Below, in pieces: positions 3,724 to 53,912 of a stretch of 64,000 bases of DNA. Location: positions 1 through 64,000 of the IMG/VR virus record IMGVR_UViG_3300024259_000016; one strand, 5' to 3'. The stretch comes from a virus. Position 1 is the stretch's first letter; each line of letters begins with the position of its first letter. Both the position numbers and the translations under genes were made by a program. The notes under the pieces are model-generated. The model saw nothing but the letters and a program-made list of their open reading frames with translations, did no database searches and was not told the origin of the DNA.

Positions 3724-4917
3724 ATGCCAAGGAAAATTGCAGACTTAGAGGTCTATTCAACTATCGAAGCAGTGCAAGCCGAAGAGCCCCCCGAGGGGAG
3801 GTGGATAGCCAAGCCCATCATCCCTACTGTAGGGAAGTTCCTCGTCTATGGGGACCCCAACGATTACAAGACGTTCACCATGTTTGACTTCCTGTTGGCC
3901 TACGCCAGCAACGGGACCTACTTTGGGGGGCTCCCCGTCGAGAAGGCAGGGACAGCTCTGTTTATCACGGCCGAAGGGGATATCTACGACACAGGTGCTC
4001 GGCTCCGGATGCTCATGCGGGGCCACAAGGACAAGGACCCCAACAACGTCGACCTCTACATGATCCATGATTCCATCCACCTCAACACCCCGCGGGGCCT
4101 GCAGCAATTCAACGATCTGCTCGTGGAGCTGGAGCCTGGTCTGGTCTTGTTCGACCCACTCCGGCATTTCATCCCCGGGGTCGACGAAAATGATGCCACT
4201 CAGATGGGGCTCTTTTGCGAGAACATGAACGGCTTCATTCGCAGCTATCGCTTCAGCCTGGGGTTCATCCACCATGCCAGTAAGAAAGGGAAGCCCCGCG
4301 GTTCCTCCGTCCTCGAGGGGTGGGTCGACTCCATGCTGCAGTTCGTCTGTGAGCGGGGTATTGAGCTCCATGATACAGAGCAGCTGTTCGACGTGATCAC
4401 TGTGCGGCAGAAGAAAGCTCGTAATGCCAAATACTCTCCTGACACCCTGCTGGTACCCGTCTTCGATAACTCCGATGAGCCTACCGAGACCGTCTACTAC
4501 GCCATGCTTGAGGGGATGAGGGAAGGTGACAGCCCCGCCACTGTAGAGGCCGCACAGCGGGTCTTGGCCTGGCACAAACGCCGCGGCCTGGCTGAGATGG
4601 ATATGCCCTTTTCAGTTAACCAGGCCGTCCAATCCATCAAAGGGGGTCGCCCCAACAAGATCAAGGCTGCCTTGACTTTCCTCCACGAGCGCGGTCTTGC
4701 CGAAAAGGCCGATGCACTGGTTTCTACTGGTCAAGGAAGAACACGATCAACCCCGGGCTGGCGCCTGCTCACCTCGACAATTGACAACATCCAAGCTATG
4801 CTTTCCCTCATGAAGAAGTATTCCGAGGTGCCGTACAGCAGCGACCCATTTCAGGCCCTCGAGGACGATTTTGGTTATCGTCCTGATGATGTCGAACCCC
4901 CAGATCCAGAAGAGTAG
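3724..4917 (+). CDS. RepA-like (AAA_25) hexameric helicase-type ATPase with altered Walker A
   Basis: 397 aa. The N-terminal half resembles RepA/AAA_25 ATPases: nucleotide loop GDPNDYKTF (residues 43-51), FITAEGD strand, LVLFDPLRHFIPGVDEND Walker B region, then LGFIHHASKKGKPRGSSVLEGWVDSM, the typical H-sensor and 'RGSS' segment of this family. The C-terminal ~130 aa look like a small winged or helical DNA-binding region (AALTFLHERGLAEK). Oddity: the P-loop has Tyr48 where Gly is expected before Lys-Thr. It probably acts in replication initiation or helicase loading. It is the only rightward gene pair in the left 19 kb. Confidence 0.75.
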   Translation: MPRKIADLEVYSTIEAVQAEEPPEGRWIAKPIIPTVGKFLVYGDPNDYKTFTMFDFLLAYASNGTYFGGLPVEKAGTALFITAEGDIYDTGARLRMLMRGHKDKDPNNVDLYMIHDSIHLNTPRGLQQFNDLLVELEPGLVLFDPLRHFIPGVDENDATQMGLFCENMNGFIRSYRFSLGFIHHASKKGKPRGSSVLEGWVDSMLQFVCERGIELHDTEQLFDVITVRQKKARNAKYSPDTLLVPVFDNSDEPTETVYYAMLEGMREGDSPATVEAAQRVLAWHKRRGLAEMDMPFSVNQAVQSIKGGRPNKIKAALTFLHERGLAEKADALVSTGQGRTRSTPGWRLLTSTIDNIQAMLSLMKKYSEVPYSSDPFQALEDDFGYRPDDVEPPDPEE

Positions 4918-6618: not shown

Positions 6619-9600
6619 TTATTCATCAAAGGTTACATTTCGGAGAAAACGCCAAAATGGACTGTCCGGATCAAGGTAACCCGGCTTGGTTCTGGTAACG
6701 AACAGGCGGTCCTGGGCGCGGGTGACTGAGACATATAGGAGCCGGGTCTCTTCCTGAGACAGTTCGGGGTCCATCTTGGACTTGGCGCCGGGGAACCTGC
6801 CGTGCACCACATCAGCCAGGATGACGTTCCGGGCCTCCTTGCCTTTGAAGCCGTGGATGGTGCTCAGGGTGAGCACGTCCCCCTGCGACGGCCCTGCCTG
6901 GCCCTGGGCCTGCCTGTGCATCTCATGCATGCGCCGCAGCAGGTCAACCTGAGCCAGCAGCTCCCCTACGGTGTCGAATTCGGAGGCAAATTCCATGAGC
7001 TCTTCGAGCACAATGAACGCCCCCTCGGAGCCCTCGGCCTTGGTCAGCCCGAACTTCTCGGCTAGGTACTCCACGTAGCCGATCTCATCGATGACGAACT
7101 TCATCATCTCGGCGGGCCCGCGGCCCTCCCGGCCCATGATCCTCAGCCTGATGATCAGCTCCTTCAAGCTCCTGAGAGCCAGCCTCTGTGGCTTGATGAG
7201 CCTGGCCTTGTCTAGGATCTTGTCGATGAGGTCTGTCTCCTCAGAGCCCTCTGCCGCTGCGTACTGGGGCCTGCCTACGAACCTCTTGGGGACGTTCATG
7301 ACAGCCCGCAGGGCGGTCCCGTCAACATCCAGGCCGGCGCCCACCCGCAAGTAGTTGAGCAGGTCCCGGGCCTCACGCCCATCCAGGATGAAGCCCCCGC
7401 ACAGCTTGATGTACGGCACCTCGTTCTTGGTACACCAGATGGAGATCCAGTGCAGTACGGCCGCGGTCCTGGCCAGCACCGTGGTCTCCCCCAAGCCCAG
7501 CTCCTGAGCCTTATCCACGATCCATTTGACCTCGTCCATCCGGCTCTCGAAGGTCTTGAACTCAATGGGCTCACCACCCTCTGCCCGCCGCGGCCGAATC
7601 TGACCTGCCAGGTGCCAGGGCCTACCCTTCACAACAGCCGAGCCCAGGGTGCAGATCTTGTCGGTGGACCGGTAGTTGTTCGGGAGCTTGAACAGCTTGG
7701 CCTTGTCCCTGTCGATGAACTGCAGGATAACCCCAGGTTCCGCAGTGCGCCAGGAATACACACTGTTGTGGACAGCGATACCGTTGGCGAAGTAGTTGGT
7801 CGTTCCATCGATATCCAGGTCCCTCAATTCGAGAGGTTCTTCCGATCGGTAACCTGTCTTGGCTACAACCTCGTCGGGTGCTCCGTCGTCCCCCCAGATC
7901 CAGGTACCTGGAACGAGATTGGCCAGTGGCATAGCTGTCATTTTCTCCCCGCAGGGTCCTTTGGCACTGCTCAAGCTGACCCTAAGGACGGCACGAATTT
8001 TAGTTGCACCAGCAACTATGTCCCCAATCTGCTCGGCAGCAGCATGTGCTTCCGCACCGGATGGGTATCTCCGACGAATCCTGGCTGTCCCGCGACGTCC
8101 GTCTCGGACAGAGATACCTGTACAGGCTGTTATCGCCTCACGAATCTTTTGGGGCGCCAGTTCCTGTGATTCGCAGGTCAGCTCAGCCGGCCGATTGTTT
8201 TTAACACCCAATGTCAATGTAATAATGATGCGCTTACCGACCTGACTTTGGGGTAAGTACGTGGGCCAGGCAAAGAGCATATGAAACAACTTGAGGATCT
8301 TTGGCCCCCCCTTGCATCCGAATTCCTTGAATATGGCTGCAGCTCCGGCTTCCGACAGGCGTAGCTTCCGACCCACTGTCTTGAACGGGAGTGTAGGGAC
8401 CTTGTAGCGTAAAGACAGCTGCAGCTCTTGCAGAGCAGCATCAGCTGCCGTCTCATGACAATCGAGCAGCCACAGGGCATCAGCTCCTTCGTGCAATGCC
8501 CGAACGGATACAGAGTGACGGGCTGCGTTTTTTGCACCTTGGGTAAGTCCTATCCGAAACCCCATGTCTTTGCGCCACATGAGGTAGGTGTAGAAGCGGA
8601 CATTGGAGTGGGGCATGCAGGCAAAGACCAGGTGGTCGGAAGAGCCCTCTAGAATTCTCCCAGATGCTGTCTTGATCTTCGTTATCTCGGTCTTGTCTGT
8701 CGCTCCGGCATGTTGGACTGTTCTAAACACCTGTTTGCCACCCTGGCATGAACCGACAGAGTCCCCGGCTTCGATATCCCGGAGTAGCACCCTGCCCCGG
8801 GTTTTTGTCTGAATCATTGTCGTGTGGGGGTTCAGGCACTGGCTCAAGTCTCCGGCCAGCATCAAGTTCTGATCCCGGTCGGACCCACCCACCGTCGGGT
8901 AGATTCGGCTGGGCAGCCCCGCGGCCAGGCGCATCAGATCATGCTGGATGCCACTGCAGTCCTGAGCCTCATCCACGATGACCACGGACCACTGGGACCT
9001 CCACCAGGCCAGCAGGTCAGGACTCCCGATGAGCAGGTGCCAGACGAAGGACTGCACATCGTCGTAGCTGTACTTGGCCATGTCCCAGCGCAGCGCCTCG
9101 ATCTCCTGATACATGGTCAAGGCCTGCTGAGAATCGATGGGCATCTTGTCGGCCAACCACGACTCAGCTATCCGCCGTACCAGCTCCCGGCCGTTGTCAT
9201 TCAGACCAAACCAGTCCTTACGCCAGGGGACAGGCCCTGTGTTCTTGCACCGAGACATGAAGGTGGACAGCACCTCGTGGTCTACGATCATCTCAGGGAT
9301 CACCTTCATCTTCTTGAGACGGTCGACCTGGGCACGCTGGGCGGCCGGCAAAGCACCGTCCTCGTCGTGCGACATGGCATCGAAGAGCCAGGGCGCCATC
9401 TTCGGCCCCCTGTCGTAGCAAAGCCCGTGGATGGTTCTGACCTCACATCCCTCGATACCCATCCCCGAGAGCCGCTCGATCATCTCCCCACAGGCTGCCC
9501 GGGTGAATGTGACCAGCAGTATCCGCCACGAATCCACCCCGGCCTCGACCAGGTCCCTCACCCGCTCCAGCAGGCACCGAGTTTTGCCACTGTTATGGAC

Positions 9601-10500
9601 CAGGAACCCGGAGGCTTCGAAGTTATGATGTGGCCCCTTCATCTTGATGTCGTATGTACGCTGCGGCCCAGCCGGGGAGACCGACTTAACGATTCCGACC
9701 CGGGTATATTTGATGCCAAAGTTTTCATCTTTGCCATGAAGTCTGGCATGGGCCTTTTTCGACAGCAGCTGTAGATTCTCAGGGACATCATTGAGGGAGT
9801 CCTCATCCTTATGGTGGACCTCCAACTTAGGGTCCAGATAAGAGAAGATGGAGGGCAAGTCTCCCCGAGTTTTCAAGATTGCAACATAGTCGGAATAAGG
9901 AATCCCATTGATGGAGGCTTCCAGGACCAAACGAGCCCGCGGCACTTCCCAGTATCTGTACTTCTCCTCACGAATACGGAGGGTCCCGGCGGGATGATGG
10001 ACATGGAGGGTAACAACCCGACGTTTAGCATATCGGGTTCTCCCTTCCCCCTTCTTAGGGAGCATATTCCCGAGGAGAAGGACCTCATCGCCGGCGGACA
10101 GTTGCCCGGCCGGCTTTCCATCAATAAGGTCCGAAGGAGTCAGGAAGGGATGGTCCCGGGTACATGTTAATTCCAGGCCGCATCGGGTCGTAACGATGAG
10201 ACAGTCCTGAACTCCGGAATCCACGATGGCCTCGATCTCGCGGTAGGCCACAACCCCCCCAGGCTCAATCGACTTGATCCTAGATGTCATGGACAGGTCC
10301 CGACCTATCGACCTCCTGCACGGGAGACCATTGAATTTCCGGTAGGCCTCCTCGATTGTGTAGGGCCGAGATCCGGGTCGTTGTCCCCTGCTAATACCCA
10401 CGATAGCGTCGGCTGCGAGGCAACCTGGGTTGCCGGCCACCACCGAGGGGCCCAGGCGATGCACCGCTACTTGCTGCTGATCTTCATCCAGATTAATCAT
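6619..10500 (-). CDS. UvrD/PcrA-type superfamily 1 helicase with two inteins
   Basis: 1293 aa precursor; removal of two inteins (residues 27-303 and 555-912) leaves a 658-aa helicase. Extein motifs: I VVAGNPG/SGKT, Ia TFTRAACGEM, II VVIVDEAQD, III LAGDLSQ/SVYSWRTAEP, IV LPNNYRSTDKI, V LSTIHGFKGKEARNV, VI RLLYVSVTRAQDRL. These are the UvrD/Rep 3'-5' helicase signatures. Both inteins begin with Cys, end His-Asn and are followed by Ser, and they interrupt catalytic motifs I and III, so an unspliced protein should be inactive. Start ATG 10500 has AAAAGGA upstream and a dyad at 10516-10536. The C-terminus is ...NVTFDE. Confidence 0.92.
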   Translation of the reverse strand: MINLDEDQQQVAVHRLGPSVVAGNPGCLAADAIVGISRGQRPGSRPYTIEEAYRKFNGLPCRRSIGRDLSMTSRIKSIEPGGVVAYREIEAIVDSGVQDCLIVTTRCGLELTCTRDHPFLTPSDLIDGKPAGQLSAGDEVLLLGNMLPKKGEGRTRYAKRRVVTLHVHHPAGTLRIREEKYRYWEVPRARLVLEASINGIPYSDYVAILKTRGDLPSIFSYLDPKLEVHHKDEDSLNDVPENLQLLSKKAHARLHGKDENFGIKYTRVGIVKSVSPAGPQRTYDIKMKGPHHNFEASGFLVHNSGKTRCLLERVRDLVEAGVDSWRILLVTFTRAACGEMIERLSGMGIEGCEVRTIHGLCYDRGPKMAPWLFDAMSHDEDGALPAAQRAQVDRLKKMKVIPEMIVDHEVLSTFMSRCKNTGPVPWRKDWFGLNDNGRELVRRIAESWLADKMPIDSQQALTMYQEIEALRWDMAKYSYDDVQSFVWHLLIGSPDLLAWWRSQWSVVIVDEAQDCSGIQHDLMRLAAGLPSRIYPTVGGSDRDQNLMLAGDLSQCLNPHTTMIQTKTRGRVLLRDIEAGDSVGSCQGGKQVFRTVQHAGATDKTEITKIKTASGRILEGSSDHLVFACMPHSNVRFYTYLMWRKDMGFRIGLTQGAKNAARHSVSVRALHEGADALWLLDCHETAADAALQELQLSLRYKVPTLPFKTVGRKLRLSEAGAAAIFKEFGCKGGPKILKLFHMLFAWPTYLPQSQVGKRIIITLTLGVKNNRPAELTCESQELAPQKIREAITACTGISVRDGRRGTARIRRRYPSGAEAHAAAEQIGDIVAGATKIRAVLRVSLSSAKGPCGEKMTAMPLANLVPGTWIWGDDGAPDEVVAKTGYRSEEPLELRDLDIDGTTNYFANGIAVHNSVYSWRTAEPGVILQFIDRDKAKLFKLPNNYRSTDKICTLGSAVVKGRPWHLAGQIRPRRAEGGEPIEFKTFESRMDEVKWIVDKAQELGLGETTVLARTAAVLHWISIWCTKNEVPYIKLCGGFILDGREARDLLNYLRVGAGLDVDGTALRAVMNVPKRFVGRPQYAAAEGSEETDLIDKILDKARLIKPQRLALRSLKELIIRLRIMGREGRGPAEMMKFVIDEIGYVEYLAEKFGLTKAEGSEGAFIVLEELMEFASEFDTVGELLAQVDLLRRMHEMHRQAQGQAGPSQGDVLTLSTIHGFKGKEARNVILADVVHGRFPGAKSKMDPELSQEETRLLYVSVTRAQDRLFVTRTKPGYLDPDSPFWRFLRNVTFDE
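7765..8838 (-). other. Intein 2 in motif III (GDLSQ/S) of the UvrD-type helicase
   Basis: 358 aa (precursor residues 555-912). Splice signatures: N-terminal CLNPHTTMIQTKT with IEAGD, block B-like GSSDHLVFAC, C-terminal block TTNYFANGIAVHN then Ser+1. The central ~200 aa carry a segment with YKVPTLPFK and helical stretches; no HNH motif and no clean LAGLIDADG pair is visible. The insert may be a degenerate or unrecognised endonuclease. Confidence 0.9.
9592..10422 (-). other. Intein 1 in Walker A (GNPG/SGKT) with HNH endonuclease
   Basis: 277 aa (precursor residues 27-303). Block A begins CLAADAIVGI, block B is CTRDHPFL, C-terminal blocks are RTYDIKMKGPHHNFEASGFLVHN (split here: RTYDIKMKGPHHNF then EASGFLVHN) followed by Ser+1. 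An HNH-type nuclease motif LEVHHKDEDSLNDVPENLQ lies at precursor residues ~226-244, so this is a potentially active homing intein placed in the P-loop. Confidence 0.93.
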
Positions 10501-14001: not shown

Positions 14002-14385
14002 CTATCCGACCCGGTGGAACAACCGGATCTGGTCAGCTTGTTCAGGTGTCAGCAGTAGGACAGTACGGCCCCCTGTCTCCATAGACTTTCCCCGTCCAGG
14101 TTCAGGGAGCACACACTCCCGCTCCATCTCCAGGATCTTCTGGCGGCTCACCCCCAATTCCTCGCCCAGTTGCACCCTGGTAATCCGCTCGCCCTTGGCG
14201 CCCCGCATCCACTTGATCTTCAGGCGGTAGCATTGCTGGTGCAGGGCCTTCTTCGTCACCCCCAACCGACGAGCACCCACCTCCATGGAAACCTTCCCAG
14301 CCAGGTGCAGCAGTCCCTCTCGGCGGGTCATCCTCTCCCCCCCGATCCGAACACCCTCATTCCAGATTCCTCTCTTGCCAGCCAT
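14002..14385 (-). CDS. Helix-turn-helix DNA-binding protein
   Basis: 127 aa from ATG 14385 (GAGGAG upstream). Two HTH-like segments are visible: SMEVGARRLGVTKKALHQQCYRLK and RVQLGEELGVSRQKILEMERE, so it may contain two tandem DNA-binding units. Located between the nuclease and the helicase C-terminal half. Candidate regulator for the local dyads, but no direct link is seen. Confidence 0.65.
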   Translation of the reverse strand: MAGKRGIWNEGVRIGGERMTRREGLLHLAGKVSMEVGARRLGVTKKALHQQCYRLKIKWMRGAKGERITRVQLGEELGVSRQKILEMERECVLPEPGRGKSMETGGRTVLLLTPEQADQIRLFHRVG

Positions 14386-14395
14386 CAGTCTCTCC

Positions 14396-15298
14396 TCACA
14401 ACCAGAGCCACATACCAAGAAGCGTCAGCCCCGCCCCAACGGCAACCCCGAACAATACTCCCCAGACGGGACCAGGCACCCAGCTCTCCTGTATAGGTTC
14501 TCTCGGCGCCACCTTCTCGACGGTATCAGCGAGGCTCAATCCCCCTCCCTGAATTCCCTTATGCAGCTCTCTCTTGAAGTCCTCCACCATGGGGCCAATG
14601 ATCCTTTTCACTTGTTCTCTTTGTTCAGGACTCGGTGGGAGTATCACCAGCTGGGTGTTATCAGGTGGGGGGATAACTCCCTTCCCCCCTTCGTAGCCTG
14701 CAGCAGCCAAAGCATCCAACTGCCTCTGCCTGTGCGGCCCATCCCCCACGAAGATACGGAAGTCAGGCCCTCCACCGATGCGGCTTCCCCTGCCCCCGGC
14801 CTGGATTACAGTATCTGGCGCCCCCACCCCAGGATCCAGGGCCACCCACTGAACGTTCGGGATGTCAATCCCTGTCCCCCACACTCGAGTCGCTACGGCT
14901 ACCCAGGCATCCCCGTCATCCAGACGCTGCCGCATCCCCTCTCGCAGCACCTTGCTCTTGACCCGGGCATCACTCACTTCGATGACCCGGTCCCCCCGGA
15001 ACCCCTCGATCCCGAGCAGCCCCAACCGTATCTTCAGCCACTGGGCTATCAGGTCCCCTGTCGGCAGGTCCCCCACCAACACCAAACCTGGCCAGCTCCC
15101 CTCGCTCAAAGCCACCAGCACATCCTTCAGGATGCCCTCCCAGGCGACATCCAGCCGGCCCTGCTCCCCCCACAGGCTCGACCCACTCGCCCCCTTCTCA
15201 CCACCGGGCTCAATCCCACCGTCGTGCCAGTTAACAACAGCTCCACCACCCGCCAGCTGGATCTCCCTGTCCCGGGGGTTACCTTTGCACGGACCCAT
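14396..15298 (-). CDS. Superfamily 2 helicase, C-terminal half (split gene) with membrane tail
   Basis: 300 aa. Helicase C-terminal lobe: GLVLVGDLPTGDLIAQWL (motif IV region), VAVATRVWGTGIDIPNV (motif V, ~133-149), VIQAGGRGSRIGGGPDF (motif VI, ~164-180). It lacks the N-terminal lobe, which is encoded by 15784-17838; the two would have to associate after translation. Oddity: residues ~278-300 form a hydrophobic segment (VWGVLFGVAVGAGLTLLGMW) that would be a C-terminal membrane anchor, unusual for a helicase. AGGAAAG lies upstream of ATG 15298. Confidence 0.8.
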   Translation of the reverse strand: MGPCKGNPRDREIQLAGGGAVVNWHDGGIEPGGEKGASGSSLWGEQGRLDVAWEGILKDVLVALSEGSWPGLVLVGDLPTGDLIAQWLKIRLGLLGIEGFRGDRVIEVSDARVKSKVLREGMRQRLDDGDAWVAVATRVWGTGIDIPNVQWVALDPGVGAPDTVIQAGGRGSRIGGGPDFRIFVGDGPHRQRQLDALAAAGYEGGKGVIPPPDNTQLVILPPSPEQREQVKRIIGPMVEDFKRELHKGIQGGGLSLADTVEKVAPREPIQESWVPGPVWGVLFGVAVGAGLTLLGMWLWL

Positions 15299-15529
15299 CA
15301 GATTCCCAGCTTTCCTGTAATGTAACCTTCTCCCAACAATATCGTCACCTTACACGCCATCTTATACTCCCTTGCCCGAAAATCCCCAAATATAACAGCT
15401 ATCCGATATCATTGTGGAAAACCTGTGGACAAAGGTTACATTTACAGAAACCCACGTCACACCTTATGCGCATGTGCGCGATCCCCGGGACTACTACCTG
15501 CGGTAGCAGCCCCAGTAGTAGTACCAGTA
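15299..15529. other. Intergenic segment inside the split helicase: repeats, DnaA-like boxes, hairpins
   Basis: Holds no gene. Seen: TTTTCCACA on the minus strand (15413-15421, fits the DnaA-box consensus) next to TTGTCCACA (15424-15432, one mismatch); the 35-bp repeat at 15419-15453; a shorter AATGTAACCTT copy at 15321-15331; an A/T-rich stretch around 15385-15415; and overlapping hairpins at 15490-15534. May act as promoter/leader for the C-terminal half, as a terminator of the upstream genes, or as an origin-like site. Confidence 0.5.
15419..15453. repeat. 35-bp repeat, inverted copy of 6505-6539
   Basis: Exact reverse-complement match to 6505-6539. Both contain AAGGTTACATT (this orientation), which also appears at 6629-6639 and, reversed, at 15321-15331. 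Confidence 0.8.
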
Positions 15530-15534
15530 CTACT
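15490..15534 (-). terminator. Overlapping hairpins downstream of the 85-aa gene
   Basis: ACTACTAC (15490-15497) can pair with GTAGTAGT (15515-15522); alternatively AGTAGTA (15514-15520) pairs with TACTACT (15528-15534). The two structures are mutually exclusive. No clear U-run follows, so terminator function is tentative. Confidence 0.3.
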
Positions 15535-15787
15535 CATCGGAGGAATCCTCTTTGCGCTCAGCCGGGACCCAGAGGTGGAATGTCATGTAGCTCGGGAGGC
15601 ATCCTCCATTACTGATGGCCCTGGCTGCCTTTTCGATAGGTGTTGTGTCTTTGTCGGACGGGGACTGGCGGAGCAACACAGTGGCTTTTCCTTCCTCGCT
15701 CAGCCCCAGTCGGTCTTCAACAAAGGTCTGCTCAAGCAGGTTCTCGCACTCCAAGCACAGGCCATCTTCATCAAAGGTAACTTTCAT
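15530..15787 (-). CDS. Hypothetical acidic protein between helicase halves
   Basis: 85 aa, start overlaps the N-terminal helicase stop (ATGA). Begins MKVTFDEDGLCLECENLLEQ with a CxxC, acidic C-terminus. No family recognised. It lies at the point where the helicase gene is divided, so it may belong to the insertion that split it. Confidence 0.55.
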   Translation of the reverse strand: MKVTFDEDGLCLECENLLEQTFVEDRLGLSEEGKATVLLRQSPSDKDTTPIEKAARAISNGGCLPSYMTFHLWVPAERKEDSSDE

Positions 15788-17838
15788 GTCCTCACAACCT
15801 CCCCGCGGGCTAGGTACCCACCCCGCTCCAAGTCAGCAATCTCGGCCACCCGTACAATAGGCCCCAGCGCGCACAGCATCAGGCAGTTCCGACCGTCTTG
15901 TCTCCCATCAGGAGTAGCTGTCAGGCCAATACGGCAGCGGGCCCTGAGGCGCCCCAGGACGGGCAAACGTGTATTACTCATGGCTGCATGGCAGTTATGG
16001 ACTACAAATCCGTTAGCGGTGTAGGTGTGCAGCCCCTCAACCTCGAGATTGTAGACAAGACCGTCTGGGCACACCCTCTCGTATTCTTCAAAACTTCCTT
16101 GTTGGAAAACCTGAATACGATCCACCCGAGTCCAGCGAGGAACTTGTCTTTCTTCCGGTCCTGACCTCGCCTCTCTGAACTGTTGTGACTCTGGCCGTCT
16201 ACCTCGATGGCTACCATCAGATCCGGTTGGGCAATGTCGATCTTGTAATGGGTGGGATATCCCCTGGATTTCGGGCCCACCCCTTCTGGAAGGCCTAGTC
16301 TCGTCGGGACAATGTGCTCCATTCCCCAACCGAGTAAACCTGCCAGCATTCGTTGGGGGACTGTAGGTTCTCGTCCGTTGCCCCCCCTCTCGACCCCTTC
16401 CGGCCAGCCCCTCTCCCTCACCTTGGCGGTCACCAGGGCGCGAACCTTGGGATCCTTCATCGGGTTGTTCTTCCGCATTCGCTCGGATGACTTCTTTGAC
16501 CACTCCTCGCGATGCTCCTCCCGGGTTCTGGCCCACACCTTCACTCGGTATTCCTTGACACATTGAACCGAGCAGTAACCCCCCTTTCCTCGGGAAAGTT
16601 GGTAGAGGGCAGACGGGCCCCGACTCCCCTGACAGATAATCCCCTTCCCGCAGTTTATGCAGTTCGTCTTGACTCTCTTCCTTCGTTCTTCCCTCCTCGT
16701 CAATTTGCATGTTTGGCAGAACAGGGATGCTCCGTTGTGATGTCTTTTCTTCCCTGTCTCCTGTCCGCATCTGTCGCAGGTGCCGTCTATCGATCTCTTC
16801 TGATGACCTTTTACTGTTTGATTCTCCATGCTTTCTGTACCCCTCTGGTTTGTGGTAGGGTACAGTGTATAGCACTCTGTCGTTGCGAGCAATCGTCTTG
16901 GCTGGTATCCAGCCTCGTTGGGTGAAAACGGGGTGTTCCTCGGTGCAGATGAATGAACCATCCTGCGTGGTAATCTGGATCAGAGATGATGGGGCTTTTC
17001 TCACGAAAGTTCCTGTGACGGTCCTCCTCTCAAGATTCCCAGATGTCTCATTGTAGGCACTGACTTGGTCCCCGATCTCAATGTCCTCAATGGGCTTTCC
17101 GTCAACCAAGGTCCCTGCTGGGAAGCACTCATCAATCACAACGCCGTCCAGGGCCCCCACAGCCTCCCCAGCAGTCCCTACGGACATGCACTGAGGCACC
17201 CCCTGCCCAACATCCCCACCAACCACATCCCTCATCTCAGGGATCACCCTGTCAAACACCTTCTGGGTCTGCCGAGCCAGCTCCTGGTTCACCACCAGGT
17301 ACCCGACCTTCTCTAGTCCAAGCAGCTCCTGCATGCACATAAGCAGCCCCGCGGCCATCACAGTTTTGCCACTGCCGGTCGCAGCTTGGATCACACACCT
17401 CCCCCACGGTGCACACAACCCCTCCACGATCCCCTCAGCTTGGTAATCACGCAGCGGCATCAGCAGCCCTTCATCCCGCAACGTCAGGACAGCTGACTCA
17501 ATCCGCAGCTGAATCAGCTCGGGCAACCAGGGATTAACAACAGCCCCCCCAACACCCCGGAGCCGGAGCAGCATAGGCTCAGTCTCATGCACTATATGCA
17601 GCCAGCTCATCATGCCCACGGGTACCTGCCCACTCGACAGAGAGCCCGCCCTCAGCACCTCAAGGGCCCCCTGGACTTCCATAACCAATTCTTCAGTACT
17701 GACGCGCCCATCCCGCATCTCCCGGGACCGATACCCCAAGGTCGTTCGCTCGTAGGCCGCCAACATGCTGACGAGGTTTGCCCTCCTACATCCCCCATGC
17801 CCCCAGGTATCCCCCATCCCGTCGACCAGAACGATCAT
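15784..17838 (-). CDS. Superfamily 2 helicase, N-terminal half, with intein in the DECH box
   Basis: 684 aa precursor; the spliced product would be 306 aa. LRDYQAEGI (~129-137), Walker A AATGSGKT (~152-159), LVVNQELARQT (motif Ia), VVIDE (Walker B, ends residue 237) / intein 238-615 / CHAAM, then IGLTATPDGRQDG (motif III). It ends after one RecA lobe (GPIVRVAEIADLERGGYLARGEVVRT), the point where XPB/SSL2-like helicases continue into the C-terminal lobe. That lobe is encoded separately at 14396-15298. The N-terminal ~120 aa are an unassigned helical domain. Confidence 0.85.
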   Translation of the reverse strand: MIVLVDGMGDTWGHGGCRRANLVSMLAAYERTTLGYRSREMRDGRVSTEELVMEVQGALEVLRAGSLSSGQVPVGMMSWLHIVHETEPMLLRLRGVGGAVVNPWLPELIQLRIESAVLTLRDEGLLMPLRDYQAEGIVEGLCAPWGRCVIQAATGSGKTVMAAGLLMCMQELLGLEKVGYLVVNQELARQTQKVFDRVIPEMRDVVGGDVGQGVPQCMSVGTAGEAVGALDGVVIDECFPAGTLVDGKPIEDIEIGDQVSAYNETSGNLERRTVTGTFVRKAPSSLIQITTQDGSFICTEEHPVFTQRGWIPAKTIARNDRVLYTVPYHKPEGYRKHGESNSKRSSEEIDRRHLRQMRTGDREEKTSQRSIPVLPNMQIDEEGRTKEESQDELHKLREGDYLSGESGPVCPLPTFPRKGGLLLGSMCQGIPSEGVGQNPGGASRGVVKEVIRANAEEQPDEGSQGSRPGDRQGEGEGLAGRGREGGQRTRTYSPPTNAGRFTRLGNGAHCPDETRPSRRGGPEIQGISHPLQDRHCPTGSDGSHRGRRPESQQFREARSGPEERQVPRWTRVDRIQVFQQGSFEEYERVCPDGLVYNLEVEGLHTYTANGFVVHNCHAAMSNTRLPVLGRLRARCRIGLTATPDGRQDGRNCLMLCALGPIVRVAEIADLERGGYLARGEVVRT
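15994..17127 (-). other. Intein 3 (DE/CHAA site) containing an out-of-frame endonuclease gene
   Basis: 378 aa. N-terminal splicing half (~100 aa): CFPAGTLVDGKPIEDIEIGD (block A), CTEEHPVF (block B). C-terminal splicing half (~50 aa): block F-like DGLVYNLEVEGLHTYTANG and terminal VVHN before Cys+1. The ~230 residues between, in this frame, are low-complexity with no domain, because that DNA encodes a homing endonuclease in another frame. The frame nevertheless stays free of stops, which splicing requires. Confidence 0.93.
16002..16829 (-). CDS. Vsr-like (EDxHD-type) homing endonuclease nested out of frame in intein 3
   Basis: 275 aa from ATG 16829 (AGAGGGG ~10 nt upstream). Order: zinc finger 1 (Cys18, 21, 38, 41), zinc finger 2 (Cys57, 60, 86, 90), a NUMOD3-like segment SERMRKNNPMKDPKVRAL (~115-132), then a Vsr/DUF559-type nuclease core: YKIDIAQPD (Asp198), AIEVDGQSH (Glu209, Asp211, His215), Asp/Lys-rich helix, LGWIVFRFSN (~234-243). 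This matches freestanding Vsr-fold homing endonucleases. The frame is shifted by one relative to the host intein, and the C-terminal ~46 codons overlap the intein C-terminal splicing blocks. It presumably cuts intein-less helicase alleles to mobilise the intein. Confidence 0.88.
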   Translation of the reverse strand: MENQTVKGHQKRSIDGTCDRCGQETGKKRHHNGASLFCQTCKLTRREERRKRVKTNCINCGKGIICQGSRGPSALYQLSRGKGGYCSVQCVKEYRVKVWARTREEHREEWSKKSSERMRKNNPMKDPKVRALVTAKVRERGWPEGVERGGNGREPTVPQRMLAGLLGWGMEHIVPTRLGLPEGVGPKSRGYPTHYKIDIAQPDLMVAIEVDGQSHNSSERRGQDRKKDKFLAGLGWIVFRFSNKEVLKNTRGCAQTVLSTISRLRGCTPTPLTDL

Positions 17839-21229: not shown

Positions 21230-23245
21230 ATGGAAACTACTACAATCCTGGAAGCCGCCCCGGACCTCGGCACCTTCACGCCCCTACCAGATCCCAACGA
21301 TATCCCTTGGTCACAGCGTGCACATGATCCTACAGCTGGCGGCCGGCTCCCCCACCCCAGTGCGGCACTCAAAGAGAGCATCGCCCAGGACCCCGACGCT
21401 GAGCTCATCCTCAAGGCAGCCCTCGACCTGCAGCACCGAATCGAGCTGGCTCGTCGCTCCCCCCTCCATCTCCTCATGCTTTGCTTCAGGCAGCCCAACG
21501 GAGCCGAGCTCTTCGTCCCCTCCTTCTATCTGGAATGGGATAAAGCCACCAGGACAGAGGGCCGCATCCTCTTTGAGGCCCCCCGTGGCGTAGGAAAGTC
21601 CGCCTTCATGATCGCCGCGGCCTTGTGGGCCATCGGTAACAATCAGAACATCCGCATCAAGTGGATCGGCCCCTCCGACGGTAACGCCCAGAAGAGGCTC
21701 GCCGTCATCCACGAGGTCTTGGATAACCCCAACCACATCTACCACCTGATCTTCCCCGGCATCGAGAAGACACCCAAGTCCTCCAAGCGGAAGAACAACC
21801 AGTCCCAGCTCAACCTGAAACGTACCCTCGACTCCCCCGACCCGACCATCGAAGCTCTCGGCGTCATGTCCTCCGGCGTCGGTGGCCGCTCCGAGATCCA
21901 GATCTGGGATGACTATGTCTCGGAATCGAACACTATCCTCAACCCAGCCATGCGCCCCAAGGTCCTGTCCAAGATGCAGAAGGACCACCTGGGTACCCTC
22001 CTCCCAAAAGGCGTCGTCTGGAACGTCTTTACGCCCTGGTCGCAGGATGACGCCAATGCCTACTTCAAGGAAAACACCTCCTGGAAGCTCCTCCGCCACC
22101 CTCACGGGATAGACGGGGACCCGTACCATTCCATCTTCCCGCAGCTCTGGCCTTCCCACAGGCTCAGGGAACGTCGTGCCGACATGGGCGAGCATGGTTA
22201 TGCTGCAGCCTACCTGCTCCGTCCCAGCGCCGCGGGCGTCATTCCCATCCTCCCGCAGCACCTCCGCCTGTTCGACAGAGCCATCCTCAACCAGGCCAAG
22301 ATTCTGGCCGGCGACACCCGCGTCATCATCACCATCGACCCGGCCCGTGGAGAAGAACTGGACAAGGGCGCCCTGTGCCCTGTCGGTATCAGCATCCAGA
22401 TGTATGTACCGAGAACACTGCCGGGGGACTCCCCTTCGGGGAGCACCCCGCGGGTAGTAGACCCTACCTCGGACAATCCCGACAACGACGAGGAGCTTTC
22501 CTTCAAGGGACTCCCCTTCGAGATCTTCCAGATCGATGCCTTCGAGTGCTACCTGTCGACCGCCGACCAGCCGAACCTCATCTGGCACCTGGCTAACCTC
22601 TACGGCGCCCACTACATCCTGGTCGAACGGGAAGCCTTAGCCGACCTGCACACCTGGCTCGAGCAGCGGCGTCACACCCTACTCAGACAAGCAGGAATAG
22701 ACCCGGCCAAGCTCCCTGTCAAGAAAGGCATCGGCGCAGAGGTCGTCCCGGTCAGCTCAGACAACCTATCCAAAGGGCAGCGGCTCCTCTCGATCACCCC
22801 ATACCTCCACCTCCCTGAGGCAAGCCCAGGTGTCCCGGCCCCCCCGGTCATGTACTTCCACCCTCGGTGCATCAGGCCCCGCCCCGAGATGGAGCTCCTC
22901 CATGTCCCCAACTACAGGTCCATCGAGGTCAAACGAGATCTCCGGGAACAGACACTCTCTTTCCCCGCCAAGTACAAGGACATCATCGATGCCGTCGTCC
23001 ATGGCGTACGTTGGATAGTTCGTTCCCTCGTCGGCCGAGACCCTTACGGACTGTTCGTCGAGAAGGATCAAGAGCAGGGCCCCCTCCAAGTGATTTCTTT
23101 GTCTCTTCGAGACAAAGAACGAGACGAACCAGGGTCAGGCGCCAGGGCCAAGCTCAAGCCAGGCTCGTCCGACAACCCAGACCCCGAACCCAATCCCTTC
23201 AAGAAGCGACACCGCCGCAAGGTCAAACCACCCGGCTTCCGCTAG
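21230..23245 (+). CDS. terL: Terminase large subunit
   Basis: 671 aa. ATPase: Walker A EAPRGVGKSA (116-125), Walker B IQIWDD (223-228), coupling motif WNVFTPWSQDD (264-274). RNase H-like nuclease: IITIDPARGEELDKGA (Asp370 first catalytic Asp), then IDAFECY and YILVEREA as later acidic motifs. It packages DNA into procapsids and cleaves concatemers. The C-terminal ~70 aa are basic. Begins 8 nt after the putative small subunit. The only unequivocal virion-assembly gene in the window. Confidence 0.93.
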   Translation: METTTILEAAPDLGTFTPLPDPNDIPWSQRAHDPTAGGRLPHPSAALKESIAQDPDAELILKAALDLQHRIELARRSPLHLLMLCFRQPNGAELFVPSFYLEWDKATRTEGRILFEAPRGVGKSAFMIAAALWAIGNNQNIRIKWIGPSDGNAQKRLAVIHEVLDNPNHIYHLIFPGIEKTPKSSKRKNNQSQLNLKRTLDSPDPTIEALGVMSSGVGGRSEIQIWDDYVSESNTILNPAMRPKVLSKMQKDHLGTLLPKGVVWNVFTPWSQDDANAYFKENTSWKLLRHPHGIDGDPYHSIFPQLWPSHRLRERRADMGEHGYAAAYLLRPSAAGVIPILPQHLRLFDRAILNQAKILAGDTRVIITIDPARGEELDKGALCPVGISIQMYVPRTLPGDSPSGSTPRVVDPTSDNPDNDEELSFKGLPFEIFQIDAFECYLSTADQPNLIWHLANLYGAHYILVEREALADLHTWLEQRRHTLLRQAGIDPAKLPVKKGIGAEVVPVSSDNLSKGQRLLSITPYLHLPEASPGVPAPPVMYFHPRCIRPRPEMELLHVPNYRSIEVKRDLREQTLSFPAKYKDIIDAVVHGVRWIVRSLVGRDPYGLFVEKDQEQGPLQVISLSLRDKERDEPGSGARAKLKPGSSDNPDPEPNPFKKRHRRKVKPPGFR

Positions 23246-23778: not shown

Positions 23779-24819
23779 CTACTGATCTCGGAAGTTCCAT
23801 CCCAACTTATTTGATAGAAACTCCCGACGCTTGTTTTTTCCCCCAGGTGAGGCATCGGGACGCCAGCTCCCTTGTAGTTTAGCCCCCAAACCCATAGCTG
23901 CCGTTACCTCATAAAGTCCTAATTTATCCATACCGTAATGGTATTGTGATGGATGTGTCTGTTCCAGAATCTGGAAACGACCCCCGGACCCACAAGGTTT
24001 TTCGAGGTGGGCTCCGAAGCAGCACCACATGCATCCAGTTCTTCTCACCCCCATTTCCCCTTCATAGCAATCTGCTATCTGCAGCCGCTCTCGCCGAATA
24101 TAATTCCAGATGTCTTGTTCAGTCCAGAAGGATAGAGGTCGGCCGACGGGGCCACCACGAACTGTCCCTTCATACATGTTGCAACCAAAACGAACCATCG
24201 AAGATCGTCGGGCTCGGGAATCTCCAACCATTGTCCCGACCATGGGGCGGAGATTTCCGAGCTTCTTCTGTGCCCGTTGCATAGGTTCAACCTTGAGTAT
24301 GTAGCAACACTTTTCACTAACCTTAAATGGGGCGGATGCCAATCCCCAGAACTTGCGAGGGACACCGTATTGTTTGGCTCTCCCCTCGGCCAGGGGTTTG
24401 CCACCATTGAGAATTACTTTCGCCCGTTCGGTTCGTCCAGCAATCCAGTGTCTACTGGCATAACGGATCTTCTCGGCATGTTGTTTACTCACAACAGGAT
24501 ACCCTTCATCAATGAGAACACGACGGAATGGTTTCGAGGGACGAACGGTAAAGATGTTGTCAGTCTGCTCGACTTGTCTCACCACCTCAGGGAACTCAAC
24601 TCCGGTATCCCCGAAGATGCCCAACACACTCGGGTACGTCTTTCGGACAATATCCAGCAAAACCGTGGAGTCTTTTCCCCCACTGTACGAAACGCAGATT
24701 TTGTCCCCCCAATGCCTATGCCACAACCAGATTCGTTCCATGGTGGCTGCAACCTTTTGTGACAAAGGGAGATCAATCATCTCTTTGAGCAGCCACCGAC
24801 GATCATCCTCGCGACTCAT
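23779..24819 (-). CDS. PAPS/APS reductase-like protein (N-type ATP pyrophosphatase fold)
   Basis: 346 aa. PP-loop SGGKDS (46-51) after a beta strand ICVSY; LGIFGDTGVEFPE (strand 2) and the family's C-terminal cysteines: CC at 171-172 with Lys and Pro following (CCYILKVEP), and CMWC at 263-266. The CC...CxxC pattern is that of 4Fe-4S APS reductases and DndC-like ATPases. Family activities are reduction of adenylylated sulfate or sulfur transfer to DNA/RNA. Phage copies may serve nucleic-acid thiolation, but no dndA/D/E partner is nearby. Confidence 0.8.
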   Translation of the reverse strand: MSREDDRRWLLKEMIDLPLSQKVAATMERIWLWHRHWGDKICVSYSGGKDSTVLLDIVRKTYPSVLGIFGDTGVEFPEVVRQVEQTDNIFTVRPSKPFRRVLIDEGYPVVSKQHAEKIRYASRHWIAGRTERAKVILNGGKPLAEGRAKQYGVPRKFWGLASAPFKVSEKCCYILKVEPMQRAQKKLGNLRPMVGTMVGDSRARRSSMVRFGCNMYEGTVRGGPVGRPLSFWTEQDIWNYIRRERLQIADCYEGEMGVRRTGCMWCCFGAHLEKPCGSGGRFQILEQTHPSQYHYGMDKLGLYEVTAAMGLGAKLQGSWRPDASPGGKNKRREFLSNKLGWNFRDQ

Positions 24820-32132: not shown

Positions 32133-33705
32133 TCAACAACCCCAATAGTCCCTCACTTGCTCATGAAGATCATACAGGGCGATGTTGAAAACATTGGGGC
32201 TCCAAAGTCCTGCCAGTCCAGCCTTCAGGTTATCCCCAAAGAACCTCCCGAAGATCCCCTCGAGTTTTCTCAAGGACGCCCAGTCAGTTTCCCCGAACGA
32301 GCGGTCCCGGAACAACCCCCCCACAGATTTATATATCGAGGACCAAGAGTCCTCGAGCATCCTACAGAACATCCCTACCTGGCTGTCCCTCCAAGCATAA
32401 GATGGCTCGAGATACTCTTTCCCTCCAGGGAAAGCAAGGCGCCCCTCCCTCGACAACCGATCACACAGCTTGGTCCCCGGGAACACACGCAGGTGCATGT
32501 CGGGATGCCGGAACACCTGTTGCAATGCCATCATTCTCCCCCAGGAAGCCCAGCGACTCCTCGAGCTCCTCCCACGTGGTGTCAGGACCAAACAAGATCC
32601 GACCGAGGTTCACCCGTATCCCTGCCCTACGCAGCCCGAGCACAGCAGTTCTCACATCCCTGGACTTCACTCCCTTCCCCAAGTACCCAAGCATCCGATC
32701 CGACCCACTCTCGGCCCCGAGGAACACGGTCTTCATCCCTGACCTATTCAGTTGCTTCAACAGGTCCATGTCCAGTTGCCCACCCCAGTTCAGGGAGTCG
32801 GCCCGAAGCTCCACCTTGTACTCGATATCCAACTCACGTTCCAGGATCTCGTGGGCAATCTCAGTGGCATGGTCCCATCCATCCATCCCCTTTGGCAGGA
32901 ACAGGTCATCATTGAAGTAGAACCGACGGATCCCCCTCTGCTTAACCATCACTTCGATCTCATCGACGACATCCCCAGCATCCCGACCAATCCAAGAAGG
33001 CTGTCCACAAAGCTTGCGGACGGCCGGCGTGGTGCAGAAGCTGCAGTTGTGGGGGCACCCGCGGCTCGCCAGGATCCGGGCACACTGTTGTCCATCACCC
33101 ATCTCATCGAGCACAGCTCGGTCAGGCTGCAGCCCTTTCCATACCTCCGAGTCACTCACCTTCTCAGTAGCCGGGCCTGTAAAAATGGGGGCAGGACATC
33201 CGGCCCGAGGTCGGAAACCGATACCCATGACACCAGTCATATAGGTTGTTGGGGGCTCCCCCAGTCTATTAGCCAGACAGACGGCAGAGGCAACCTCGGG
33301 GGCAGTCAGTTCCCCGTCCCCCAGTACAACCACATCACAGGCTGTTGTCTCCCAGTCCTCGAGGATCGCACGGGCGCACAGACTAGCATGGTGTCCGCCC
33401 CAACAAACCACAGGGGACTCGAGCCTCCACATAGCCCGGACATCCCGGCTGACCCGACTTACCACCTCCGCATTCGAACAGTCCACCGTGAACCCAACCA
33501 TACCAGCCATAGGAATCCGGGACAGAGTTGTCACTACTTTGGCGACACCACCCATCACCCCGCTATCCAGGATCCTCACCTCATGCCCACACCCCCGCAA
33601 AGAGGCAGACACATAGGCCAGGCCCAGGTGTTCGTCGGCATGAACCCGTTGTCTAACCAGGTCGCCCCCAGCCTCGGTCAGTAATCTCACCAGATAGATC
33701 AACAT
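32133..33705 (-). CDS. B12-binding-type radical SAM protein, frameshifted
   Basis: Two frames: 32461-33705 (414 aa) and its continuation at 32133-~32540. N-terminal cobalamin-binding-like Rossmann domain (VVCWGGHHASL; VVVLGDGE), then the radical SAM motif CPHNCSFC (217-224) and a TIM-barrel half (FYFNDDLFLPKG; ELRADSLNWGG; TVFLGAESGSDRMLGYLGKG; VNLGRILFGPDTTWEELEES). The expected end (HLRVFPGTKLCDRLSREGRL) is in the +1 frame; removing one base from the CCCCC run at 32538-32542 rejoins them to ~520 aa, a normal family length. Such enzymes methylate or rearrange unactivated carbons. Confidence 0.8.
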
Positions 33706-50234: not shown

Positions 50235-50497
50235 CAGCAGTCCTCCCCCCAGCAGCCCCAACAGTCAGAGCTGGGCTCGCAGCCCGAGGGGCAACGCAGG
50301 CCCTGGGCCTGCTCACGCCCCCACTGCCCGACCACGGCCTGCTTGTCCTGCTCCAGGTTGCTCTTGAACTTCTGGCAGATCCCGAAGCAATCGAGCGGGG
50401 TGTACTGCTTGTAGGCAGAAACATCCGGGAAGGTTCGGCCGATGAGGCTGGCCAGTTCTTCGCGGGTCAGGTTCTGATCCAATTCGTTGAAGGTCAT
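50234..50497 (-). CDS. Hypothetical small protein with Cys-rich end
   Basis: 87 aa. LTREELASLIGRTFPDVSAY, then CFGICQKFKSNLEQDKQAVV and C-terminal CPSGCEPSSDCWGCWGEDC. Metal binding likely at the C-terminus. Confidence 0.55.
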   Translation of the reverse strand: MTFNELDQNLTREELASLIGRTFPDVSAYKQYTPLDCFGICQKFKSNLEQDKQAVVGQWGREQAQGLRCPSGCEPSSDCWGCWGEDC

Positions 50498-50512
50498 GAA
50501 CTTTTCTCCATG

Positions 50513-50947
50513 TCAGGCGACGAGCCAGTCGCATCCGGCGGCTCTGGCGGCATCCACTTGCAGGCTACTACACACCTGTATCGCGACACACCGCATGGTA
50601 ATCTCGGACTGGAATTGGCCAGCTACCCTATCTCTGATCAGGTGGGGCAAGGGCAGGTCAGTCCAGGCCTCCGACTCGAAGACCAGATAGGCCGGCGTGG
50701 ACATCCTGGGCAACTCGAACAGCTCAGGGAACAATACCTCATCAGCTGGACTGACAAGGAGCTGATCTTCGTGCACCCACCTGGCCGGGGCCATCTGATC
50801 AACCCAGATTTCAGGGGGCTGGGACCGGACAACCAGGTCAGGCAGTGAAGTAACCCTGTCCAGGCCACGACACCAAGGATCCGCCGGCAGCTCCTCCAGG
50901 AGCAGTGCCCCGAGGATCAGGAAGACGAGCAGAGCGAAGATGAACAT
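50513..50947 (-). CDS. Membrane-anchored hypothetical protein, promoter-proximal gene of the long leftward series
   Basis: 144 aa. N-terminal MFIFALLVFLILGALLLEEL is a signal anchor; the rest is a periplasmic or cytosolic soluble domain without recognised motifs. The array of GTGAAC-N4-GTTCAC dyads begins 128 nt upstream. Confidence 0.6.
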   Translation of the reverse strand: MFIFALLVFLILGALLLEELPADPWCRGLDRVTSLPDLVVRSQPPEIWVDQMAPARWVHEDQLLVSPADEVLFPELFELPRMSTPAYLVFESEAWTDLPLPHLIRDRVAGQFQSEITMRCVAIQVCSSLQVDAARAAGCDWLVA

Positions 50948-51036
50948 GCTACCTCCAGTTGAAGGTTAGGGGAGATCATTGAATTTGCAGGTGATTCAAG
51001 TTGCTGGCTACCCCTCGCACACGCGGGAGTTCACTA

Positions 51037-51050
51037 GTAGGTGAGCCTAC
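51037..51050. promoter_or_regulatory. Small inverted repeat beside the dyad array
   Basis: GTAGG-TGAG-CCTAC, on the left flank of the array, in the direction of the 50947 gene. Possibly a hairpin in that gene's leader. Confidence 0.35.
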
Positions 51051-51074
51051 TTAGGCGGAGCTAACTCCCCAGGT

Positions 51075-51265
51075 GTAATCGATTGTTCACAGTGTAATCG
51101 GTTGTTCACGTGAACCGCTGTTCACAGGGGGTGTGAACGATTGTTCACAGTCCAGGGGGTTGAGGGTGTGAACGTTGGGTTACAGGTGTGAACGTCTGTT
51201 CACGGTCAACGGGATATGCTACCCTGTGAACGATTGTTCACATAGAGGTGTGAACTTCTGTTCAC
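51075..51265. repeat. Array of eight GTGAAC-N4-GTTCAC dyads
   Basis: Copies at 51075-51090, 51094-51109 (both with GTAATC left arms), 51110-51125, 51133-51148, 51168-51183 (degenerate), 51188-51203, 51226-51241 and 51250-51265. Consensus GTGAACGATTGTTCAC. Irregular 16-38 bp spacing. Lies in the 436-bp gap between the leftward 50947 gene and the stop of the 51384 gene. Reads as an iteron- or operator-array. Confidence 0.85.
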
Positions 51266-51305
51266 GTTCCCCTAAACTCCGTGCGATATCAAGGGATTAG
51301 GGGGA

Positions 51306-51323
51306 ACCATGAGTTTTCATGGT
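51306..51323. terminator. Hairpin ACCATGA-GTTT-TCATGGT
   Basis: Perfect 7-bp stem with 4-nt loop, between the dyad array and the 3' end of the 51384 gene. Could terminate leftward transcription of that gene; no strong U-run. Confidence 0.35.
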
Positions 51324-51383
51324 CCGGACGTAGGTATGGTGTGGGCTACTGGGGGGTGTTGCTCCGCTTTCCCTGTGATACTG

Positions 51384-52484
51384 CTAGGTATTCGCGGGGT
51401 AGAGTCTCATTCCAAGCTCATTGGGGGTGACACAGTATGTTGCTCCTGACCTTGAAGGCCAGTGGACCCAATGGGGAATGCTATGTAGATAGTTGCTGTA
51501 TGTCTCTTGTGTTGACTCCTGAGCTTGCCTAGTGGGTGCTACCTGGTTACGGTACGCCGCGACCCTGGATGGTGTCAGGCGACGGGTGGTGCGTTGCTGT
51601 GCAGTCGCTTGACGCTTGATCTGTCGGTTGAGCTTGCGACGTTGTTTCTTCGATAGTTTGGATGCAGGGGATCCGCATACCTTGCGACGGGTGGCGCGGG
51701 ATTCTGAACCATTTTGTGCGTGTTCTTCTATGTCCCGTGCACTGTAACCATGGTTCTGGGGGTCGTTTATGGGGTCGATAGCGTCGACGATAGGAGCAAT
51801 CCCCCCCTTCCCTAACACCTTGCGTATGTTCCCCCGTAGCCGCGCGCGCTCGCTTGTATATTCAGCTTTTTGGGATGGGTCAAGGGGAGTACGGCACTCG
51901 GTACAAACGACCTTTAAACCGCTTGTATCAATGTCTACTGGCGCCATACATACGGGACATACTGCCCCATGGTATTGATACTGCTCCGCCCCTTCTACAC
52001 TCCAACGTATGGATCCTTGTATACTGCCCGGTCCTTGTGTAGGGCCGTACCCGAATCCCTGCATATTGCGAGACTGTACACAAGCTAGCTTGCTATCTAC
52101 TTGCCGCGATTGGCTGTCATTGCGACGTATAGAGGCTACTACAGATTGTATAGACTTGAGTAATATACGTTTATAGTGAACAGGGAGATTATCTACAGTG
52201 GTTTGTACATTATTGAATGATGATGCTACTTTGTATATTTCCCTAGTAGATAGGGATTCGAGATATTGTATACAACGTGTGTAGTATTGTGGGCCATACT
52301 CGCCAGCGACGGGAGTAGGTAGCCCGATGACATGATCGGGTGCGCGATAGCCTGTCACGTCCCTATGTACTAGGGACCATGACGGCCAGTGTACCTTGAC
52401 CAATGGATCAGGTAGCAAGCAAGGGAGAATCCCTTTGTAGGTTTGCTGGAGGGTATCGGGGGATGGTATTAGGGGGGGAAGCAC
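51384..52484 (-). CDS. Hypothetical basic zinc-ribbon protein of atypical composition
   Basis: 366 aa. Central zinc ribbon CPVCMAPVDIDTSGLKVVCT...C (Cys x4), Gln/Tyr-rich middle, basic C-terminal region SKLSKKQRRKLNRQIKRQAT. Codon use and base composition (A/T-richer, many TA-containing codons) look unlike the flanking genes, suggesting separate origin. Beside the dyad array it is a candidate replication or partition protein, but no Rep motif is recognised. Confidence 0.6.
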   Translation of the reverse strand: MLPPLIPSPDTLQQTYKGILPCLLPDPLVKVHWPSWSLVHRDVTGYRAPDHVIGLPTPVAGEYGPQYYTRCIQYLESLSTREIYKVASSFNNVQTTVDNLPVHYKRILLKSIQSVVASIRRNDSQSRQVDSKLACVQSRNMQGFGYGPTQGPGSIQGSIRWSVEGAEQYQYHGAVCPVCMAPVDIDTSGLKVVCTECRTPLDPSQKAEYTSERARLRGNIRKVLGKGGIAPIVDAIDPINDPQNHGYSARDIEEHAQNGSESRATRRKVCGSPASKLSKKQRRKLNRQIKRQATAQQRTTRRLTPSRVAAYRNQVAPTRQAQESTQETYSNYLHSIPHWVHWPSRSGATYCVTPNELGMRLYPANT

Positions 52485-53275: not shown

Positions 53276-53438
53276 ATAAGATAGAATGAACCGTGATCCT
53301 GCTACCATCGCGCGCGTACCCGTACCGCCAGTGCTGGCCGCCGGACCACCACTGAATCGGTCGAGACAGAGTCAAGCGATGGATCCGGACAGAGGACAGA
53401 ATGTTAGCTAAGTGTAGGTAATGACAGATGGAATGCAT
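53274..53438 (-). CDS. Doubtful small Trp-rich frame
   Basis: 54 aa from ATG 53438. PIQWWSGGQHWRYGYARDGS looks protein-like, but there is no ribosome site and the N-terminal part is low in information. It overlaps the noncoding region. Confidence 0.2.
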   Translation of the reverse strand: MHSICHYLHLANILSSVRIHRLTLSRPIQWWSGGQHWRYGYARDGSRITVHSIL

Positions 53439-53912
53439 ACCTACATGATATGAGAGGTATCCTACAGTTACATACCAATACAAGGAATACAAGGTATTTC
53501 TATCCTACACTGTAGGGAAGTGTATACAATCCACCTATAGGTTTTCTGTAGTGATAACAGATAGTTACGCTGGAATCAATTCTAAGCTCATAACCTATAC
53601 TCCTATACCAGGGGATACCTCGAACCGGTAGGGAGCCTCACAGGACCTAGAATAATAGGGTCCATCCAGACATGGTTAGGGTTTCTGGAACCTAGTGCCA
53701 AGTCTATAGACAAGGTAGACAATGACCCCTTTTCCTGTGTAGGGTAGGGTAGTGTGGAGTAGGTAGCAGCCTACAGTGGGGGGTAGGGTAGGAGTAGGGA
53801 CCGGGGTACGGTATACAGGGGAACCGGTCCGGACCTTGACCACCCTCGCCCGCCGGACAAGGGTATTCCCCTTGAATTGGGGTACCGAAATGCCGGATTT
53901 CCCACGCGGGGG

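Follow-up and report, generated by a model that had tools for sequence, protein, structure and literature searches.

Eight copies of the dyad GTGAAC-N4-GTTCAC lie together in a gene-free gap of a tailed-phage genome and, judged from sequence features, are probably the iterons, or initiator-binding part, of the main, bidirectional replication origin of the phage. Since all eight sit at the sole switch point of strand composition, the array probably marks the place where copying of the genome starts. The analysed window covers the initial 64 kb of a viral contig of 114,059 bp, which has matches to terminase, tape measure, tail tube and baseplate proteins, together with a family-A DNA polymerase and AAA_25 and UvrD helicases. 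The map closes into a circle of about 114,027 bp: a unique 32-bp overlap joins the two contig ends, and an intact proline-rich ORF spans the junction. Genes of relevance to replication or regulation are:

3724–4917, AAA_25 helicase, a candidate replisome part
6619–10500, UvrD helicase, a candidate replisome part
14002–14385, small HTH candidate, KorA/HTH-like (weak)
21230–23245, terminase, 28 kb from the array
109434–109688, small HTH candidate with a Replic_Relax-like winged helix, adjoining the DNA polymerase gene
109685–111922, family-A DNA polymerase, a candidate replisome part

The UvrD helicase gene contains an intein and HNH, and there is also an intein in a DEAD/ResIII helicase gene (14396–17838), of which a separate ORF (14396–15298) may be the C-terminal helicase part. 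An auxiliary gene at 23779–24819 is phosphoadenosine phosphosulfate reductase-like, and sulfotransferase family matches are also present in the proteome.

The array was described in an earlier note on this DNA as having eight copies, two with altered left arms and one degenerate, and this description is confirmed in each respect. Five of the dyads are exact and three have two mismatches, all within 191 bp at 51075–51265:

51075–51090, plus strand, iteron 1, GTAATCGATTGTTCAC, altered left arm GTAATC
51094–51109, plus strand, iteron 2, GTAATCGGTTGTTCAC, altered left arm GTAATC
51110–51125, plus strand, iteron 3, GTGAACCGCTGTTCAC, exact, abutting iteron 2
51133–51148, plus strand, iteron 4, GTGAACGATTGTTCAC, exact
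51168–51183, plus strand, iteron 5, GTGAACGTTGGGTTAC, degenerate right half GGTTAC
51188–51203, plus strand, iteron 6, GTGAACGTCTGTTCAC, exact
51226–51241, plus strand, iteron 7, GTGAACGATTGTTCAC, exact
51250–51265, plus strand, iteron 8, GTGAACTTCTGTTCAC, exact

The right half, YTGTTCACR, is on the plus strand in all seven intact copies and occurs nowhere else in the 114 kb on either strand, and the array therefore consists of direct repeats, all in one direction, of an imperfect 18-bp palindrome (consensus TGTGAACGNYTGTTCACR; the array dyad is also written as TGTGAACGATTGTTCACA). Start-to-start spacing is irregular (19, 16, 23, 35, 20, 38 and 24 bp). When the window is shuffled, there are 2.4 ± 1.4 scattered matches at ≤2 mismatches, and none of 100 shuffles reaches the eight present in the real window. 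All five exact dyads in the 114,059-bp contig are in the array, and there are no further dyads at ≤2 mismatches elsewhere in it. The earlier note had held that dyads scattered throughout the genome would speak against its reading, and on the whole contig the array proves to be the sole locus. The array strand folds better than shuffled sequences (z −4.4), as expected because the dyads are dense.

The array and its neighbours are arranged as follows:

50250–50957, no strand, interval with the fitted GC-skew switch and the cumulative GC and keto minima
50513–50947, minus strand, first gene of the leftward series, its start 128 bp from the array
50948–51383, no strand, gene-free gap with the array, 436 bp with no gene called; the contig has six gaps >250 bp, this one included
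51036–51051, no strand, flanking perfect dyad AGTAGG-TGAG-CCTACT, unlike the iterons in sequence
51307–51322, no strand, flanking perfect dyad CCATGA-GTTT-TCATGG, unrelated to the iterons
51384–52484, minus strand, 366-aa ORF with CxxC...CxxC (zinc-ribbon), GTG start, reading towards the array
52091–52290, no strand, inside the 51384 ORF, one of the most AT-rich segments of the contig, its best 100 bp (70% AT) at 52140
53400–53599, no strand, non-coding, the 200 bp with the highest AT content in the contig (64%)

Everywhere outside 50950–51400 there are at most three perfect 6-N4-6 dyads per 200-bp window. The leftward series beginning at 50947, previously put at ~17 kb, actually extends to 23267 (about 27 kb) and is interrupted only by one doubtful small plus-strand ORF (32182–32400). 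Within the array, 51220–51260 is moderately unstable, but only within the least stable 3–5% of the contig. No strong AT-rich element was found abutting the array; the most AT-rich 100-bp and 200-bp segments of the contig lie 0.8–2.3 kb rightward, and 52091–52290 is possibly a distant unwinding region. A 60-bp repeat (CATATACTCCC...CATCACGCTATC) is present in three imperfect copies in the non-coding segment 53914–54098, before the rightward genes. An Rfam scan gave no match above gathering score, and DNA and protein similarity searches of the array region in phage and plasmid collections gave no match. The only relatives of the region are contigs 100% identical to it, which offer no diverged sequence for a conservation comparison.

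Nucleotide-skew analysis, one of the checks that the earlier note proposed, places the array within 0.9 kb of the main GC-skew switch of the genome. In the whole closed contig the cumulative GC-skew minimum is at 50,897 and the keto-skew minimum at 50,957, with the opposite cumulative-skew extremum at about 4–5 kb; in a two-arc fit the switch falls at 50,250 (bootstrap 50,250–50,750) and the opposite switch at ~4.75 kb. The direction of the genes does not explain this. A gene-level regression gives an arm effect of 0.10 versus a strand effect of 0.02 (best break 50.0–51.5 kb), the arm effect beyond strand exceeds that in all 1000 of 1000 permutations, and three blocks of genes on the 'wrong' strand keep the skew of their own arm (19.7–23.2 kb, −0.23; 63.9–75.3 kb, +0.02; 107.7–113.0 kb, +0.04). 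Moreover, gene direction changes only at 53.3–54.3 kb, to the right of the skew switch; leftward ORFs reach 53.1 kb and rightward genes start at 54.3 kb, so the two switches are ~3 kb apart, with the skew switch resolved to about 1 kb and the composition of 51.4–54.3 kb being odd. A strand-composition switch that is independent of gene strand is a general feature of bidirectional replication origins, and it is present at this site.

We searched for tandem GTGAAC-N4-GTTCAC dyads in viral contigs and in bacterial genomes, and found them in at least eight unrelated loci of phages or prophages, in each case inside a replication-initiator gene, as confirmed by PHROG matches. These include:

L027, viral, phrog_678 (7.8e-24), next gene a primase/helicase
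L031, viral, phrog_391 (7.5e-21)
L035, viral, phrog_2880 (9e-14), next gene DnaB
L152, viral, phrog_270 (7.7e-15), 5 copies
L153, viral, phrog_678 (4e-19), 6 copies
L110, L129 and L131, bacterial contigs, dyads likewise inside replication-initiator genes

Two further families (the L024 group and L029) are placed by their DnaB neighbours (phrog_19, 2e-90 and 6e-58). The dyads are located just after the N-terminal winged helix, and the next gene, where readable, encodes DnaB or a primase-helicase. The copies within a single gene are not all in the same reading frame in L029, L031 and L035, and it is thus the DNA word and not a peptide that is conserved. As a control, two other palindromes in tandem gave 2 and 9 viral matches with none beside the DnaB, primase-helicase or O queries, compared with 9 of 20 for the dyad, a comparison that is biased because the query proteins came from the case set. 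At the corresponding position, the O-like genes of three annotated enterobacterial phages contain TTAGC-N5-GCTAA dyads, four in tandem with spacings of 20, 24 and 23 bp, which agrees with the known lambda layout (PMC7466680). By its sequence context, then, the dyad recurs as an origin repeat among phage initiators, though not exclusively so. The bacterial matches are mostly pairs of dyads near MFS/TetR-type genes of Actinobacteria, where they are probably operators, and because of this paired use the motif alone is not diagnostic of an origin. Skew in the dyad-bearing contigs G002, G003, G005, G006 and G007 is weak, their dyads are not placed at a switch, and they lend no support.

Other contexts of the dyad were also seen. 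Two phages (L039 and L036) have pairs 16–18 bp apart at several places per genome, a dispersed, operator-like use. Pairs in four Anaerolineae loci (L068, L080, L124 and L128) lie within ParB-like genes, an arrangement that would amount to parS in parB, and three dyads of phage L028 (835–950) are in a gap upstream of a terminase gene pair.

The array has features of several known systems. Lambda iterons are 19-bp imperfect inverted repeats in 4–6 direct copies (PMC7466680), and here too there are tandem copies of an 18–19-bp imperfect inverted repeat in one orientation; the identical dyad is embedded in the O-like initiator genes of L027, L031, L153 and L129. However, this array is intergenic rather than inside an initiator gene, its eight copies are irregularly spaced, no strong AT-rich tract of the kind that flanks lambda-O repeats was found directly beside it, and no O-like gene was found in the phage. 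Plasmid and RepA_N iteron origins, including that of the PLE satellite of Vibrio cholerae, similarly consist of semi-palindromic direct repeats located in non-coding DNA, and the initiator gene of PLE lies apart from the origin repeats (PMC7145576, PMC8263062). No Rep family was found in this phage, whose replicon is 114 kb; a plasmid iteron origin has its rep gene beside the repeats, whereas the neighbour here (51384–52484) matches no Rep family. The array would work in the manner of a lambda-O or plasmid iteron origin, but we have filed it with neither, since the repeats are neither in nor beside a recognisable initiator gene. The spacing of 16–38 bp, less regular than the usual 21–24, also counts against an origin.

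Comparison of the phage proteins with phrog_391, HTH_36 and Bac_DnaA_C (DnaA domain IV) gave no match, and a custom O-like wHTH profile gave nothing (E>2), although these comparisons could miss a very diverged initiator. The 51384 ORF is probably real, with 405 stop-free codons compared with a maximum of 238 in 400 simulated sequences. A role for its zinc-ribbon product at the array is nonetheless unsupported: the searches made found no relative, family match or Rep family, a single-sequence AlphaFold model is unusable (pLDDT 41), and the codon usage is foreign (GC3 0.48 versus 0.68 for the genome). Two other candidates were considered and rejected. The gene at 32461–33705 encodes a CxxxCxxC radical-SAM-type enzyme, of families that are common, and was dismissed as a dyad binder; the proximity of its homologues to dyad pairs in L091 and L122 (~350 bp) is probably a coincidence. 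The iterons of the phage P4 alpha protein (GGTGAACAG) look similar to the array dyads, but there is no P4-alpha-like helicase-primase among the scanned phage proteins, and no published text with GGTGAACAG was found.

The earlier note offered two readings of the array, plasmid-like iterons or a multi-operator switch, of which the iterons are the better supported (directional repeats at one locus, the skew switch, and the dyad in initiator genes elsewhere) and the switch is retained as the main rival, albeit an unlikely one. A phage repressor or activator, such as the 14002–14385 or 109434–109688 protein, would bind the dyads and control the leftward operon from 50947. The array is 128–318 bp upstream of the first leftward gene, the phage encodes these two small HTH proteins, and dyad pairs are found upstream of the MFS/TetR-type genes in Actinobacteria and dispersed in phage L039. 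The actinobacterial sites share the same 12 specified bases and came from the same search, but they are two copies 22–26 bp apart at transporter or regulator genes, not oriented and not in arrays of eight. Operators usually number one to three, and in phages with dispersed operators the site recurs at several promoters, whereas here eight copies are at one place with none at other promoters in the 114 kb (≤2 mismatches). No sigma-70-like promoter was found between the array and the gene at 50947, and a switch of this kind leaves the coincidence with the strand-independent skew switch unexplained.

Readings that invoke host DnaA, partition, packaging or LexA are minor. It is improbable that the half sites are high-GC DnaA boxes (TTGTNCACA) recruiting or titrating host DnaA; each dyad does consist of two abutting inverted 9-mers, and the three occurrences of TTGTTCACA in the contig are all within the array, but only three of the eight copies fit on the plus strand, strict dyad symmetry is not a DnaA-box feature, and a canonical cluster is lacking, with TTATNCACA absent from the contig and TTGTCCACA present elsewhere but not in the array. 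Furthermore, there is no DnaA domain IV among the phage proteins. A parS-like partition site or a pac site is more doubtful still; the dyads inside the Anaerolineae ParB-like genes (L124) and upstream of the L028 terminase gene pair are the precedents, but no ParB or ParA match to the phage proteins was found in the Pfam scan or among the PHROG matches listed, and the terminase gene is distant. We regard it as least probable of all that these are LexA/SOS boxes tying the phage to host DNA damage. The Gram-positive Cheo box has the identical core, GAAC-N4-GTTC, and the 109434–109688 winged-helix protein has a weak LexA_DNA_bind score (E 0.12); however, a cluster of eight boxes at one site would have no known precedent, the outer bases (GTG/CAC) are fixed without being required by the core, and two copies lack the left GAAC, having GTAATC instead.

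Under the preferred reading, that of an iteron origin, we infer that a sequence-specific initiator dimer would bind each 18-bp imperfect palindrome and that the eight directional copies would build a nucleoprotein complex. This complex would open the nearby duplex and load the replisome, and forks would travel in opposite directions along a circular 114-kb intermediate, heading for a terminus near 4–5 kb. In a more specific and rather speculative version, which we think unlikely as a whole, this large lytic-type phage would have a detached iteron origin on which an initiator from an undescribed family, perhaps the 51384 zinc-ribbon protein, acts in trans through a dyad shared by many unrelated phage initiators; if true, one DNA specificity recurs across initiator families. 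For large uncultured phages the origin is hardly ever located, and here sequence alone has yielded a 200-bp origin candidate with a matching replication signature, so that the array could serve as bait to isolate the missing initiator. The dyad inside initiator genes is a side result that can be checked across public data, and a 12-base dyad serving as the built-in origin repeats of many O-like initiators would let origins and initiators be paired by motif.
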